Shown: in pieces, positions 28,594 to 33,350 of the stretch
Numbering within the stretch: the stretch's first letter is position 1
Layout: each line of letters begins with the position of its first letter
Assembly (NCBI RefSeq): GCF_900101335.1
Contig: NZ_FNKA01000001.1
Coordinates: 186,001 to 250,000 of the forward strand
DNA from: Quadrisphaera sp. DSM 44207
GTDB taxonomy: Bacteria > Actinomycetota > Actinomycetes > Actinomycetales > Quadrisphaeraceae
Reading direction: 5' to 3'
Length of the DNA: 64,000 nt
Made by a program: the position numbers and the translations under genes
The notes under the pieces: generated by a model
Told to the model about the DNA's origin: nothing
Database searches by the model: none
The model's input: the letters and a program-made list of their open reading frames with translations, nothing else

Positions 28594-29394
28594 ATGGCGG
28601 TGCAGGACGGCGTGCGCGACCCGGCGGTGCAGGACCCGGCGGTGCAGGACCCGGCGGTGCAGGACCCGGCGGTGCAGGACCCGGCGGTGCAGGACCCGGC
28701 GGTGGCCGGCTCGGCGGGCGGGCGGCGGCACCCGGCCGGGCGCTGGCGCGCGGCCGCCGTCGCGCTGGCGGTGGCGCTCGTGCTCGCGCTGGCCGCCCTG
28801 GCGGCGGTGTGGGTCTCGAGCACCCGCACCCACCCCGAGGACTCCGTCGAGGTCGGCTTCGCCCGCGACATGCACGGCCACCACGGCCAGGCGGTGACGA
28901 TGAGCCTGCTCGTGCGCGAGCGCGGCAGCGACCCGCAGGTCGCGGCGTTCGCCGAGGAGGTGATCACGGGCCAGGCCGAGCAGCAGGGCGTGATGCTCGG
29001 CTGGCTGCACCGCCAGGACGTGCCGGCCACCAGCTCGCTGCCGCCCATGGCGTGGATGGAGCACGAGGCCGCCGCCGGCGGTCACGCGGCCCACGGCGGT
29101 GCGGCGGCCGGCGGCGCGATGACCGCGGAGGAGGCGCGCGAGGCGATGGGCATGGCCAGCGACGAGGAGCTCGCCGCGCTCGGCCGCGCGTCGGGCACCG
29201 AGGCCGACCTGCTGTACGTGCAGCTGATGGCACCGCACCACGAGGGCGCGCTGGAGATGGCGCAGGCGTTCCTGGCCAGCAGCGACGAGCCGCAGCTGTC
29301 GTGGCTCGCCGAGGCCGTCGTCACCGGCCAGGAGCGCGAGCTGCGGATCCTCGCCGACCTGGAGGCCGACCTGCAGCAGCGGCTGCAGGGCTGA
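28594..29394 (+). CDS. DUF305 family protein with N-terminal DPAVQ repeats
   Basis: 266-residue protein: a cytoplasmic N-terminus with five DPAVQ repeats plus one DPAV, one membrane helix (AAAVALAVALVLALAALAAVW), then an extracytoplasmic DUF305 ferritin-like four-helix domain. The two DUF305 His/Met motifs are FARDMHGHHGQAVTMS and QLMAPHHEGALEMAQAF; the family is linked to copper or other metal binding. A His/Gly-rich insert (GGHAAHGG) adds potential metal ligands. The last 74 bp overlap the convergent pabAB gene. Confidence 0.88.
   Translation: MAVQDGVRDPAVQDPAVQDPAVQDPAVQDPAVQDPAVAGSAGGRRHPAGRWRAAAVALAVALVLALAALAAVWVSSTRTHPEDSVEVGFARDMHGHHGQAVTMSLLVRERGSDPQVAAFAEEVITGQAEQQGVMLGWLHRQDVPATSSLPPMAWMEHEAAAGGHAAHGGAAAGGAMTAEEAREAMGMASDEELAALGRASGTEADLLYVQLMAPHHEGALEMAQAFLASSDEPQLSWLAEAVVTGQERELRILADLEADLQQRLQG
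28618..28704 (+). repeat. In-frame 15-bp tandem repeat (DPAVQ) in the DUF305 gene
   Basis: Five identical copies of gacccggcggtgcag from 28618 to 28692 and a partial sixth to 28704. The unit is five codons, so copy-number change keeps the frame. It encodes the cytoplasmic tail in front of the membrane helix. Confidence 0.95.
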
Positions 29395-31612
29395 GGACGG
29401 CGAGCAGCGGCGCCGCCTTGAGGAGGACCTCGTCGTGCTCGGCGGCGGGGTCGGAGCCGAGCACGACCGCACCGCCCGTGCCGACGCGCCAGGTGCCGCC
29501 GGCGCGCACCGCGGTGCGGATCACCACCGCGAGGTCGGCCTCGCCGCCGGGGCCGATCCAGCCGAGGGCGCCGGAGTAGACGCCCCGCGCCTCCTGCTCC
29601 AGCTGCTCGAGCACCTCGACGGCGCGCACCTTGGGCGCCCCGGTCATCGACCCGGGCGGGAAGCAGCTGTCGAGGCAGCTGAGCGCGTCCTCGCCCGCCG
29701 CGAGCCGGCCGCGCACCGTCGTCACGAGCTGGTGCACGGTGGCGTAGGAGCGCACGGCCATCAGCGCCGGCACCGCCACCGTGCCCGGCTCGCACACGCG
29801 CGCCAGGTCGTTGCGCACGAGGTCGACGACCATGAGGTTCTCCGCGCGGGCCTTGGGGTCGGCGGCCAGCGCGCGGGCGGCGGCGGCGTCCTGCGCCGGG
29901 TCCGCCAGCCGCGGCGCGGTGCCCTTGATCGGCTCGCTCTCGGCCCAGCCGTCGCCGTCCACGCGCAGGAACCGCTCCGGGGAGGAGCACAGCACCTCCA
30001 CGTCGGTGCCGTCGGTGCCGTCGACGTCCCGCAGGCGCAGGTAGGCCGCGTAGGGAGCGGGGTTCGCGCGCCGCAGCCGCCGGTACCGGGCGAAGCCGTC
30101 CCCCGGGGCGCCCGAGGCCGGCACCCGCACGCCCGTGGTCAGGCAGGCCTCGTACACCTCGCCCTGGCGCAGCAGCTCCTGCACGGCCTCGACGTCGGCG
30201 GTGTAGCCGGCGCGGTCGCGCGTCCACACCGGCCGCACCGCACCGGCTCCGTCGGCTCCGTCGGCTCCGTCGGCTCCGTCGGCTCCGTCGGCTCCGTCGG
30301 CCGGGGGCGGCAGGGGCTGCAGGTCGTGCAGCGCCTCCGCGAGCGCGTCCAGCGCGGCGGCGCTGCGCGCGTCGCCCGCGGCGTCCGCGGGCTCCAGGTG
30401 CACCAGGTGCGTCTCGTCGCCTGCGTGGTCGACGAGCACCAGCCGCTGCGGCAGGACCCACGCCGCGTCGGGCGTGGCCGCCCGGTGCCGGGTGGGCCGC
30501 ATGGTGCTGCTGCCGGCCTCGTACCCGTGCCAGCCGACCCAGCCGCCGGCGACGCCCAGCGGCAGGGCCGGGCCCTCCACGCGCCGGGCCCGCAGCCGCT
30601 CGCGCAGGTGCTCGAGCACGGGCACGCGCCGCTCGAGCACGGCCCCGCCCCCGCAGCGCACCCGCGTGGTGCCGCTCGCGGCGTCGAGCAGGACCACCTC
30701 GGCGAGCTCCCCCTCGGCGTCGCCCAGCACGGACACCGCGCCGCGACCCGGGTCGGTGCGGGCGCTGTCGAGCCAGAAGGCGGTCCCCGACGCCGCGAAC
30801 AGGCGCGCGAAGGCCGCCTCGGCGTCCACCGCGCGCCCGAGCGCGCGGTGCGCCACCCGCAGCCGCACGGGCGCGGACGGCGGCTCACCGGCGCCCGGGC
30901 GCGCCGACCCGCGCGGCACCCGCGACCCGTCCCCGGGCCCGCCCCTCGGCCCGCTCCTCCGCCCGCCCCCGGGCCCGGGCAGGCCGGCCTCGCGCAGCAC
31001 GCCGGCCAGCAGGGCCGCGCCGTGCTCGGTCGCGACGGACTCGGGGTGGAACTGCAGGCCCCACGCGGGCCGGTCGCGCACCCGCAGGGCCATGACGACG
31101 CCGTCCTCGGCCCGCGCGAGCGCCTCGAGCTCCTCCGGCAGCGGCTCCGCGACGCACAGGGAGTGGTAGCGCACGGCGGTGAACCCGTCGGGCACGCCGG
31201 CGAAGACGTCCCGGCCGCCGTGGTGGACGCGGGTGAGGTGGCCGTGGCGCGGCTGCGGCGCCGGGACGACGTCCGCGCCGGCCATCGCGGCCAGGCCCTG
31301 GTGCCCCAGGCACACGCCGAGCACGGGGACGCCGAGCTCGCGCGCGCCCTCCAGGACGGCGCGGGAGCCGGCGAAGTCCCGGTCGCGCGCCGGGTGGCCG
31401 GGCCCGGCGGAGATGACGACGAGGTCCGCGTCCCCGGCGGCCAGCAGCGGCAGGGCGCCGGCGGCCGCCTCCCGGTGGTCGACGACGCGGGGCAGGCCGC
31501 CGGTGGCGGCGGCGAGCAGGTGGCGCAGGGTCCAGGTGTAGGAGTCCTGGTTGTCGACGAGCAGCACCCGCGCGCCGGCGCCGGAGGCCCGGCGGGGGCG
31601 GCTCGCGGCCAC
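29321..31612 (-). CDS. pabAB: Aminodeoxychorismate synthase, fused PabA-PabB
   Basis: Converts chorismate and glutamine to 4-amino-4-deoxychorismate for folate. The N-terminal glutamine amidotransferase (about 1-200) has LLVDNQDSYTWTLRHLL, nucleophile VLGVCLGHQG and GLQFHPES; the C-terminal chorismate-binding domain has SEPIKGTAPR (PabB-type Lys), LVRNDLARVCEPGTV, GSMTGAPKVRAVEVL and IRTAVRAGG. Length 763. GTG 31612 follows AGGAGG; the longer open frame upstream crosses the small peptide gene's promoter. A GAD repeat sits in the inter-domain part. The C-terminal tail after LLAVLS is Ala/Gly/Arg-rich and overlaps the DUF305 gene by 74 bp. Confidence 0.93.
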   Translation of the reverse strand: MAASRPRRASGAGARVLLVDNQDSYTWTLRHLLAAATGGLPRVVDHREAAAGALPLLAAGDADLVVISAGPGHPARDRDFAGSRAVLEGARELGVPVLGVCLGHQGLAAMAGADVVPAPQPRHGHLTRVHHGGRDVFAGVPDGFTAVRYHSLCVAEPLPEELEALARAEDGVVMALRVRDRPAWGLQFHPESVATEHGAALLAGVLREAGLPGPGGGRRSGPRGGPGDGSRVPRGSARPGAGEPPSAPVRLRVAHRALGRAVDAEAAFARLFAASGTAFWLDSARTDPGRGAVSVLGDAEGELAEVVLLDAASGTTRVRCGGGAVLERRVPVLEHLRERLRARRVEGPALPLGVAGGWVGWHGYEAGSSTMRPTRHRAATPDAAWVLPQRLVLVDHAGDETHLVHLEPADAAGDARSAAALDALAEALHDLQPLPPPADGADGADGADGADGADGAGAVRPVWTRDRAGYTADVEAVQELLRQGEVYEACLTTGVRVPASGAPGDGFARYRRLRRANPAPYAAYLRLRDVDGTDGTDVEVLCSSPERFLRVDGDGWAESEPIKGTAPRLADPAQDAAAARALAADPKARAENLMVVDLVRNDLARVCEPGTVAVPALMAVRSYATVHQLVTTVRGRLAAGEDALSCLDSCFPPGSMTGAPKVRAVEVLEQLEQEARGVYSGALGWIGPGGEADLAVVIRTAVRAGGTWRVGTGGAVVLGSDPAAEHDEVLLKAAPLLAVLSPAAAAAGRPPGRRGSAARAPGR
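30246..30299 (-). repeat. In-frame 9-bp tandem repeat (Gly-Ala-Asp) in pabAB
   Basis: Six identical gctccgtcg units (plus-strand reading), encoding Asp-Gly-Ala repeats in a linker of PabB. The unit is three codons, so copy-number change would be tolerated. Confidence 0.95.
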
Positions 31613-31666
31613 GGCTCCTCCTGTCCGGTGAGGACGCGACGGTACCCGCCGGCCCACCTGGACCCG

Positions 31667-31708
31667 ACATGTGGGGGTGCTGCGCGCGAGCACCACAGCA
31701 TGTAGCGT
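31667..31708 (+). promoter_or_regulatory. Promoter with dyad for the small peptide gene
   Basis: TAGCGT at 31703-31708 fits TAnnnT and puts +1 at 31715, one base before ATG 31716. The stretch upstream is a nested dyad: acatg (31667-31671) with catgt (31699-31703), and inside it gtgct/agcac around gcgcgcg. This would cover the -35 and spacer, a position suited to a repressor or activator. Confidence 0.5.
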
Positions 31709-31715
31709 CTCGATC

Positions 31716-31838
31716 ATGACGCAGACGCCCACTCCCCCGGCCCCGCCCGCCACCGCTGCCGCCGAGGAGGACGACTGGCTCGCCAGCGCCACCGCGTGCT
31801 CGGTCGAGGCCGGCGAGGACTGCGAGGCCTGCCAGTAG
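31716..31838 (+). CDS. Small cysteine-containing peptide (40 residues), unknown
   Basis: Short reading frame with ATG and TAG. The N-terminal half is Pro/Thr/Ala-rich (starting MTQTPTPPAP), followed by acidic EEDDWLASATA and the C-terminus CSVEAGEDCEACQ with three cysteines (C28, C36, C39; CxxC at the end). A leader-like first half and a Cys-rich core at the end resemble a ribosomally made peptide precursor or a small metal-binding peptide; no maturation enzyme is recognised nearby. Support for reality: correct leaderless promoter, GC3-consistent codons, and position alone in a 316-bp gap between divergent pabAB and the dehydrogenase. I do not recognise the family. Confidence 0.6.
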   Translation: MTQTPTPPAPPATAAAEEDDWLASATACSVEAGEDCEACQ

Positions 31839-31928: not shown

Positions 31929-33350
31929 ATGGCCATCGCCACCACCAACCCCGCCACCGGGGAGACGCTGAGGACGTTCGACGCGCTGGGTGAGGAGGCG
32001 CTGGAGGACAGGCTGGCCCGCGCGGCCGCGGCGTTCGCGCGCTACCGCCTCACCGGCGTCGAGGAGCGCGCCGGCTGGCTGCGCTCGGCCGCCGACGTGC
32101 TCGAGGCGGACGCCGCGGACGTGGCCGCGCTCATGACGACCGAGATGGGCAAGACCCTCGCGGCGTCGAAGGCGGAGGTGGCCAAGTGCGCGACGGCGCT
32201 GCGCTACTACGCCGAGCACGGCCCCGCGTTCCTGGCGCCCCGCCCCGCCGACGCGGACGCCGTCGGCGCCCGGCGGGCCTACGTCGCCTACCAGCCGCTG
32301 GGCGTCGTCCTGGCGATCATGCCGTGGAACTTCCCGCTGTGGCAGGCGATGCGCTTCGCCGCCCCGGCGCTGATGGCGGGCAACGTCGGGCTGCTCAAGC
32401 ACGCCAGCAACGTGCCGCAGACCGCCCTGTACATGGAGGAGCTCTTCCGGAAGGCGGGCTTCCCCGACGACGTCTTCCAGACCCTGCTGATCGGCTCCGG
32501 CGCCGTCGAGCGGGTGCTGCGCGACGACCGCGTCGTGGCGGCGACGCTGACCGGCAGCGCGCCGGCCGGGCGCTCGGTGGCCGCCGTCGCCGGGGACGCG
32601 CTGAAGAAGACGGTGCTCGAACTCGGCGGCAGCGACGCGTTCGTCGTCATGCCCTCGGCCGACCTGGAGAAGGCCGCCGCGGTCGCGACGACGGCGCGCT
32701 GCCAGAACAACGGCCAGAGCTGCATCGCCGCCAAGCGCTTCCTCGTGCACGCCGACGTGGCGGAGGAGTTCACCCGCCTGTTCGCGGAGCGGATGGGCGC
32801 CCTCGTCGTCGGCGACCCGATGGCCGAGCAGACCCAGGTCGGCCCGCTGGCCACCGAGCAGGGGCGCCAGGACGTCGAGGACTACGTCACCGACGCCGTC
32901 GACAAGGGCGCCACGGTCGTCGTCGGCGGGCAGCGCGGCGAGGGTGCGGGCTGGTACTACCAGCCGACCCTCGTCACCGGCGTCACGCCGCAGATGCGCA
33001 TGCACGCGGAGGAGGTCTTCGGGCCCGTCGCCGCGCTGTACACGGTGCAGTCGCTGGAGGAGGCCGTCGCGATCGCCAACGACCACGAGTACGGGCTCGG
33101 CTCGAACCTGTGGAGCGACGACCCCGCCGAGCACGAGCGGTTCGTGCGGGACGTCGCCGCGGGCATGGCGTTCGTGAACGGCATGACCACCAGCTACCCG
33201 CAGCTGCCGTTCGGCGGCGTGAAGGCCAGCGGGTACGGCCGGGAGCTGACCGACCTCGGCATGCACGAGTTCGTCAACGTCAAGACGGTGTGGATCGGCG
33301 CGGACAGCAGCGAGCACCCCGGAGGGGACGTCAGCAGCGCCTCGGAGTGA
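31929..33350 (+). CDS. NAD(P)-dependent aldehyde dehydrogenase (succinate-semialdehyde type)
   Basis: 473-residue aldehyde dehydrogenase oxidising an aldehyde to an acid. Key residues are visible: MPWNFPLWQAMRF (substrate/cofactor Asn), catalytic Glu in VLELGGSDAFVV, catalytic Cys in RCQNNGQSCIAAKRF, and EEVFGPVAALY and the C-terminal LPFGGVKASGYGREL. Overall pattern (MTTEMGKTLAASKAEV, KHASNVP) matches GabD-like succinate-semialdehyde dehydrogenases, but no GABA genes are near, so the substrate is inferred. Start ATG 31929. Confidence 0.9.
   Translation: MAIATTNPATGETLRTFDALGEEALEDRLARAAAAFARYRLTGVEERAGWLRSAADVLEADAADVAALMTTEMGKTLAASKAEVAKCATALRYYAEHGPAFLAPRPADADAVGARRAYVAYQPLGVVLAIMPWNFPLWQAMRFAAPALMAGNVGLLKHASNVPQTALYMEELFRKAGFPDDVFQTLLIGSGAVERVLRDDRVVAATLTGSAPAGRSVAAVAGDALKKTVLELGGSDAFVVMPSADLEKAAAVATTARCQNNGQSCIAAKRFLVHADVAEEFTRLFAERMGALVVGDPMAEQTQVGPLATEQGRQDVEDYVTDAVDKGATVVVGGQRGEGAGWYYQPTLVTGVTPQMRMHAEEVFGPVAALYTVQSLEEAVAIANDHEYGLGSNLWSDDPAEHERFVRDVAAGMAFVNGMTTSYPQLPFGGVKASGYGRELTDLGMHEFVNVKTVWIGADSSEHPGGDVSSASE

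Follow-up and report, generated by a model that had tools for sequence, protein, structure and literature searches.

The 64,000-nucleotide stretch of Quadrisphaera sp. DSM 44207 analysed here (contig NZ_FNKA01000001.1, positions 186,001 to 250,000; hereafter the window) carries a gene of 40 codons whose product ends like the class I ribonucleotide reductase (RNR) alpha subunit, NrdA, of the same genome. The product of this gene is probably a diffusible version of the redox arm at the C-terminus of class I RNR alpha and would re-reduce NrdA in trans. More generally, and in our judgement by a little better than an even chance, the class I redox arm is a detachable and exchangeable module: a free peptide of 28–43 residues with its own docking segment would recharge the enzyme in trans, having replaced the native tail in split RNRs of phages and bacteria, serving as a second arm beside a tailed RNR in the Quadrisphaera group and Kineococcus xinjiangensis, and standing under NrdR in the window genome. 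Sequence comparison establishes the homology of the tail, the conservation of the frame, the promoter element that nrdA and the peptide gene have in common in the window genome, and the existence of split loci elsewhere. The features concerned are the following:

31716..31838, plus strand: free-standing RNR tail gene, 40 codons and stop, defined by its translation, with relatives in five Quadrisphaera-group genomes and K. xinjiangensis
31797..31835, plus strand: redox tail CSVEAGEDCEACQ, C-x7-C-x2-C-Q, like the end of NrdA from the same genome
31764..31796, plus strand: acidic-aromatic segment and hinge EEDDWLASATA, candidate docking motif by a D/E and W/F criterion
31693..31708, plus strand: putative NrdR box 2 CCACAGCATGTAGCGT, overlapping the -10; its pattern CCACAGNATGTAGCGTC occurs at two places in the genome
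31662..31677, plus strand: putative NrdR box 1 ACCCGACATGTGGGGG, weak, 12/16 self-complementary, 31 bp upstream of box 2
31703..31708, plus strand: -10-like TAGCGT, ending 7 nt before the ATG; the same hexamer stands in the nrdA promoters of 6/6 family genomes compared

By sequence, the end of the window peptide and the redox tail of class I RNR alpha are homologous. The frame runs from ATG 31716-31718 to TAG 31836-31838 on the plus strand and encodes MTQTPTPPAPPATAAAEEDDWLASATACSVEAGEDCEACQ, in which 11 of the last 13 residues equal those of the NrdA C-terminus of the same genome, CSIENGEDCEACQ (in a longer extract, ...VVVLPDTAAAACSIENGEDCEACQ), whereas the best open reading frame end in 60 codon-shuffled windows reached 5/13. 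Both chains have the pattern C-x7-C-x2-C-Q at the extreme C-terminus, which in the peptide reads CEACQ, so that the CxxC pair lies at the very end; the peptide differs in having a separate gene, no core, and an acidic-aromatic segment before the cysteines. At the DNA level, the peptide tail matches the nrdA tail, 169 kb away, with an expectation value (E) of 4.3e-11 and 91% identity over 45 nt (40/45 nt identical in the last 15 codons). The 40-codon gene is, by these comparisons, real and not a chance frame, as a preliminary description made from the letters of the window had proposed; its placing of the gene at 31667-31838 holds for the end, but 31667 lies in the promoter and the gene begins at 31716.

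In each of the six genomes with the peptide, a frame of about 1000 codons also gave a weaker match (E 5e-5 to 0.3) at its very C-terminus, and these frames are class I RNR alpha (NrdA). That of the window genome scores 1594.5 bits with NF005544 and 702.7 bits with TIGR02506, and an nrdB match adjoins it. The window peptide itself has no catalytic core and no covalent attachment to one, the sole RNR alpha found in the genome lying elsewhere. The links to the nrdA tail and to the nrdA promoter element were not visible from the window alone. A DNA match that might have been a second peptide copy (G000:C3:468072, G000 being the window genome) lacks the frame and appears to be a chance match of low complexity. 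Similarly, a search for another tail-less RNR core in the window genome returned one PF02867 match only, and that one is tailed. The NrdB of the window genome presumably has Phe at the position of the E. coli radical Tyr, judged by eye, which would make the enzyme class Ic-like. By itself, the window peptide is expected to be disordered.

Relatives of the peptide were sought in 59 genomes, and strong matches (E below 1e-9) came from the window genome and five of the six genomes of a sister genus in the same family, here termed the Quadrisphaera group (g2), which includes Quadrisphaera granulorum DSM 44889 (G007), 'Streptomyces sp. NP160' (G004), the metagenome-assembled genome (MAG) M60 (G012) and Quadrisphaera sp. 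INWT6 (G011). K. xinjiangensis DSM 22857 (G072) has a diverged peptide, VPETTAPEPAVEEEDDFLSGVSACAIDAGPECEACQ, and its own NrdA ends CSITDPDCEACQ. Conservation of the frame in relatives, which the preliminary description had set as the test of its proposal, is what was found: in all nine of the pairs compared, out of 15 possible among six loci, identity was higher in the frame than in its flanks. The window frame is 73-76% identical to those of three Quadrisphaera-group loci, compared to 33-40% for 200 nt upstream and 25-50% for 200 nt downstream; for G001 and G007 the values are 94% for the frame and 43% and 59% for the flanks; and for the closest pairs, G001 with G004 or G009, 95% and 72-80%. 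Nonsynonymous change (dN) was lower than synonymous change (dS) in 15/15 pairs, but over 24 codons only, too short to test selection. Immediate neighbours vary, with a ChaB-type gene at G001 and similar frames in three of the four other fetched loci. A divergent leuS is found close by in three of the five fetched loci, and likewise in the window (TIGR00396 identifies LeuS in the window, at L043 and at L045, and that of L044 was judged by its N-terminus), which suggests vertical descent of the peptide gene.

The window genome and five of the six Quadrisphaera-group genomes have one RNR alpha match each, and in INWT6 the two matches are pieces of one gene. The nrdA of INWT6 (G011:C3:278865-280471) lies in two frames of 599 and 530 codons, from a frameshift or a sequencing error, and this is also the sole genome of the group in which no peptide match was seen. 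The idea that the peptide is tied to having a single RNR failed, as G002 (g3) and G003 (g4), likewise with one RNR alpha each, gave no peptide match. Covariation of the peptide with the NrdA tail was also rejected, as GDE occurs in both chains of G012, whereas in G007 the peptide has GDE and NrdA has GED. The g3 genomes G005, G008 and G010 each have a second RNR alpha match, which in G005 and G010 ends ...CFTCG...CEGCGSTSGCS, is cysteine-rich, and looks like class II.

The usual NrdR site consists of two boxes with a 15–16 bp spacer and is described as bound by NrdR loaded with ATP and deoxyadenosine triphosphate (dATP) (PMC12051234). An NrdR gene is present in 13/13 family genomes (in the window genome at G000:C2:125668-126093, 159.2 bits), and the window peptide would there be under the control of a putative NrdR element common to nrdA. 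The sequence before nrdA is CCACAGGATGTAGCGTC and that before the peptide gene is CCACAGCATGTAGCGTC. With up to two mismatches allowed, the pattern CCACAGNATGTAGCGTC has two sites in 3,195,637 bases, one before nrdA and one before the peptide gene, both with 0 mismatches; its reversed control likewise gave 2 matches, and the pattern was picked after both promoters had been seen. The regulated-looking promoter of the preliminary description is thus borne out by an element that nrdA shares, and where an upstream dyad had been described, the region has two 16-bp stretches, 31662-31677 and 31693-31708, which lie 31 bp apart. The box pair of nrdA in the window genome (GCACTACATCTAGTGT and CCACAGGATGTAGCGT) is also 31 bp apart, the spacer is 15 bp in both promoters, and box 1 is 12/16 self-complementary in each (GCACTACATCTAGTGT and ACCCGACATGTGGGGG). 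The nrdA-type element is kept in 6/6 nrdA promoters at 14-16 of 16 positions, and box 1 is visible in those of G001, G007 and G012 among the other five genomes. Since TAGCGT (31703-31708) ends 7 nt before the ATG, the peptide mRNA may be leaderless, and the leaderless start first described from this hexamer is plausible.

Outside the family, free tails were found in split RNR systems. There are eight such loci, in five Rhodococcus phages, one viral contig and the actinobacterial genomes G266 and G775, and in each an RNR alpha without tail cysteines is directly followed by a free tail of 28-43 residues. In G266 and G775 the free tails are MDETTTTATTSTAIDELDWDGWDLSPAEVCSIENGADCTACEG and MNEDTTTADIDTDALDGLTWDDWTPAAICAIENGVDCAACEG, and the order of elements is cobalamin riboswitch, RNR small-subunit gene (by sequence), core, tail. 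The core of this type is near TIGR02510, NrdE-prime (576.4 bits, below the cut-off of 602.25), and among 1313 matching phage records those of Rhodococcus phages come closest. All five Rhodococcus phages fetched (Weasels2, Peregrin, Grayson, Trina and NiceHouse) are split, with the tail of 28-31 residues as the next frame after the core; it is annotated as a hypothetical protein in four records and is without annotation in that of Weasels2. The riboswitches of the G266 and G775 operons match RF00174 at L151:3133-3336 and L152:4270-4411 (77.6 and 68.6 bits). The second RNR alpha of both genomes is probably a B12-dependent class II enzyme, because its score is similar to those of G005 and G010.

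To compare split with intact loci, a table of 109 NrdE-prime rows was assembled from 22 viral loci, 80 more (the best 80 of 130), five phage records and two bacterial loci; removal of repeats (five viral contigs in both scans, Weasels2 and Trina) left 102 sources, and four cores cut by a contig end left 98 readable. Tail-less cores make up 7/98 and a free tail adjoins in 7/7, whereas 91/98 are tailed and have a free tail starting within 120 nt downstream in 0/91; many viral rows are close kin, so the rows are not independent. In two of the 91 tailed loci there is a cysteine-containing frame 112-113 nt downstream, unlike a tail. G266 and G775 had been found via the tail and the five phages via the core; the eighth split locus, IMGVR_UViG_3300013102_000004, came from a tail search and is outside the 98-source count. 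The split core retains cysteines in three motifs, which we take to be those of the catalytic cysteines. With three cysteines, the free tails of split systems follow the pattern of NrdA tails and not the plain CxxC end of their tailed NrdE-prime relatives (for example SKGECIACHG), which looks like an exchange of tails. The split NrdE-prime of Rhodococcus phages thus resembles the window peptide in its free tail, three cysteines and acidic-aromatic segment, and differs in that the phage tail directly follows a tail-less core, whereas the window peptide stands alone and its own NrdA is tailed.

Wider searches added few cases. In the order (396 genomes; 24 loci, L080-L103) the new free tails were L080 and L081 only, in the family of G266 (149 genomes) free tails were found in G266 and G775, and in the class (394 genomes) and the phylum (396 genomes) no further one was found; in these searches at most 18-19 candidate places were scored in many genomes, and the genomes were sampled from larger groups, so misses are likely. 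Furthermore, a contig scan with at least 10 loci listed gave, among those listed, four free tails, each already known from the genome searches, and six attached tails. A tblastn search of phages with the Quadrisphaera tail gave four matches, with E of 6-7 only, and the window peptide matched PHROGs at E 0.18-0.23 at best.

Free and attached tails were also compared for a segment, within the 16 residues that precede the first cysteine, with three or more D/E and one or more W/F, a criterion set after the free tails were seen. Such a segment occurs in 11/11 distinct free tails, a count that does not include the eighth split tail, and in 3/35 distinct attached three-cysteine tails, two of the three being NrdAs of the Quadrisphaera group. 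The segments of free tails include EEDDWL, DWDGWD, EFDFDED and DWSNWD, whereas Trp occurs in the same 16 residues in none of the 35 attached tails. The acidic-aromatic segment is a candidate docking motif that would replace the tether. NrdB subunits bind alpha via C-termini of their own that are frequently acidic and aromatic, and so competition of the peptide with NrdB is a live alternative.

Class I and class II RNRs re-reduce the active site through C-terminal cysteines (PMC9531940), and these cysteine pairs are reported to be recharged by thioredoxin or glutaredoxin (PMC5704485). For the free arm, thioredoxin (or mycoredoxin/NrdH) would reduce the CxxC of the peptide, the EEDDWL segment would dock it on NrdA and so stand in for a covalent tether, and the peptide dithiol could then reach the active site and re-reduce the disulfide that each turnover leaves. 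At low dATP, NrdR of the window genome would release the peptide along with nrdAB, and the peptide would raise RNR turnover when deoxynucleoside triphosphates are short. In split systems the free arm would be the only arm, and in the window genome it would add to that of NrdA. There is a precedent in P. aeruginosa: NrdJb of its split class II RNR is described as giving thiol exchange to NrdJa, and both chains as needed in vivo (PMC4520616). As proposed for the window case, the cysteines that reduce the active site are on a separate polypeptide, but that system is class II, whereas the free tails here have 28-43 residues and are class I, and the core in the window genome is still tailed. For the eight split loci, the simplest reading is that the 28-43-residue peptide does the thiol-exchange job of NrdJb. 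The NrdA of Aeromonas phage Aeh1 is likewise reported as two polypeptides that associate and are active, but it is split by an inserted endonuclease element and not by detachment of the tail (PMC7344957).

Several observations weigh against a free arm that assists NrdA. The peptide was not found in INWT6 or in the six g3 and g4 genomes of the family. The NrdA of the window genome retains its own tail cysteines, so on present evidence the peptide is not needed for turnover and its copy is an extra arm. As for the promoter, box 1 is weak (1346 of 63984 16-mers in the window also reach 12/16 self-complementary), two of the six nrdA promoters (G004 and G009) show no clear box 1, and the nrdA-type element is absent upstream of the peptide genes of five Quadrisphaera-group genomes and K. 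xinjiangensis (best 8-9/16 in 300 nt, no better than shuffles). The last point means that nrdA-like control is specific to the window genome, and it makes a helper slightly less likely and an inhibitor slightly more. Sml1 is a small yeast RNR inhibitor and provides the model for such a brake: the peptide would mimic the NrdA tail, or the NrdB C-terminus through its acidic-aromatic segment, and compete for the active-site cleft, NrdB docking or thioredoxin. The window peptide is likewise small, acidic before its cysteines and possibly able to bind RNR alpha, and the NrdA of its own genome is tailed, but Sml1-type inhibitors are not known to have such a cysteine tail, and the window peptide has the promoter element of the enzyme genes. 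A detached 135-residue C-terminus of the Neurospora RNR large subunit was toxic in yeast and complexed with Rnr1p (PMC3618301), which also favours inhibition. However, the same kind of peptide accompanies a tail-less core in all eight split loci, and in the window genome the nrdA promoter element at the peptide gene would mean that the peptide is made with RNR, the wrong logic for a brake. An inhibitor is therefore considered unlikely. In the window genome the peptide would more likely be a helper than a brake, because the promoter is of the nrdA type and NrdR repression would be lifted when more RNR is needed.

It is improbable that the gene is a functionless relic, translated or not, of a 3' nrdA fragment or a lost split RNR. 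Peptide and nrdA tails are 39-44/45 nt identical within single genomes and the peptide was not found in several relatives, as a relic would have it, but the frame is conserved amid more diverged flanks, the five Quadrisphaera-group genes each have their own start (ATG or GTG) with GGAGG within 60 nt upstream, none of the attached tails collected has the D-D-W-L segment, and the window genome has the nrdA-type promoter element. There is only a slim chance that the peptide titrates thioredoxin or reports redox state or RNR demand with no action on RNR turnover; the reduction of RNR C-terminal cysteine pairs by thioredoxin and glutaredoxin (PMC5704485) is compatible with this, but the split systems better fit a direct catalytic role. 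The preliminary description had offered a peptide precursor or a metal- or redox-sensing mini-protein, and its redox option survives. A ribosomally synthesised and post-translationally modified peptide (RiPP) precursor or a metal sensor is suggested by the leader-like Pro/Thr-rich half and the three cysteines, but is hardly credible for a peptide with the C-terminus of NrdA, an nrdA-type promoter and no family match in Pfam or NCBIfam, whose two neighbours, the flanking genes identified here, are a fused glutamine-amidotransferase/chorismate-binding gene (PabAB/TrpGE-type, minus strand) and an aldehyde dehydrogenase gene (31929-33350). The three cysteines may still bind metal.

No description of a free class I RNR tail was found in the literature covered on RNR tails, split RNRs, Sml1, Quadrisphaera or Rhodococcus phage RNR, which is not proof, as most subscription papers lay outside it. 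Split RNRs are already known; the minimal detached class I arm, and the extra arm beside a tailed enzyme, appear to be new. A 2022 phylogeny reports CxxC in 1737/2022 class I alphas (PMC9531940), and some of those without it may be split like these. RNR, which makes the building blocks of DNA, is essential and a drug target, and the way in which its flexible tail reaches the active site is hard to study because that tail is disordered and tethered. Free tails that occur naturally and carry a candidate docking motif would make the tail step testable with separate purified parts, and the occurrence of the arm cut off from the enzyme in phages and bacteria suggests that it can work detached. Furthermore, free tails could explain RNR alphas that look incomplete and indicate what a set of 'hypothetical' phage genes probably encodes, and the window peptide gene suggests a new kind of NrdR target.

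Two repeats were observed elsewhere in the window. Six tandem ADG triplets (30248-30301) lie in the minus-strand glutamine-amidotransferase/chorismate-binding protein, and five tandem DPAVQ copies (28618-28692) lie near the N-terminus of a 266-residue plus-strand frame.
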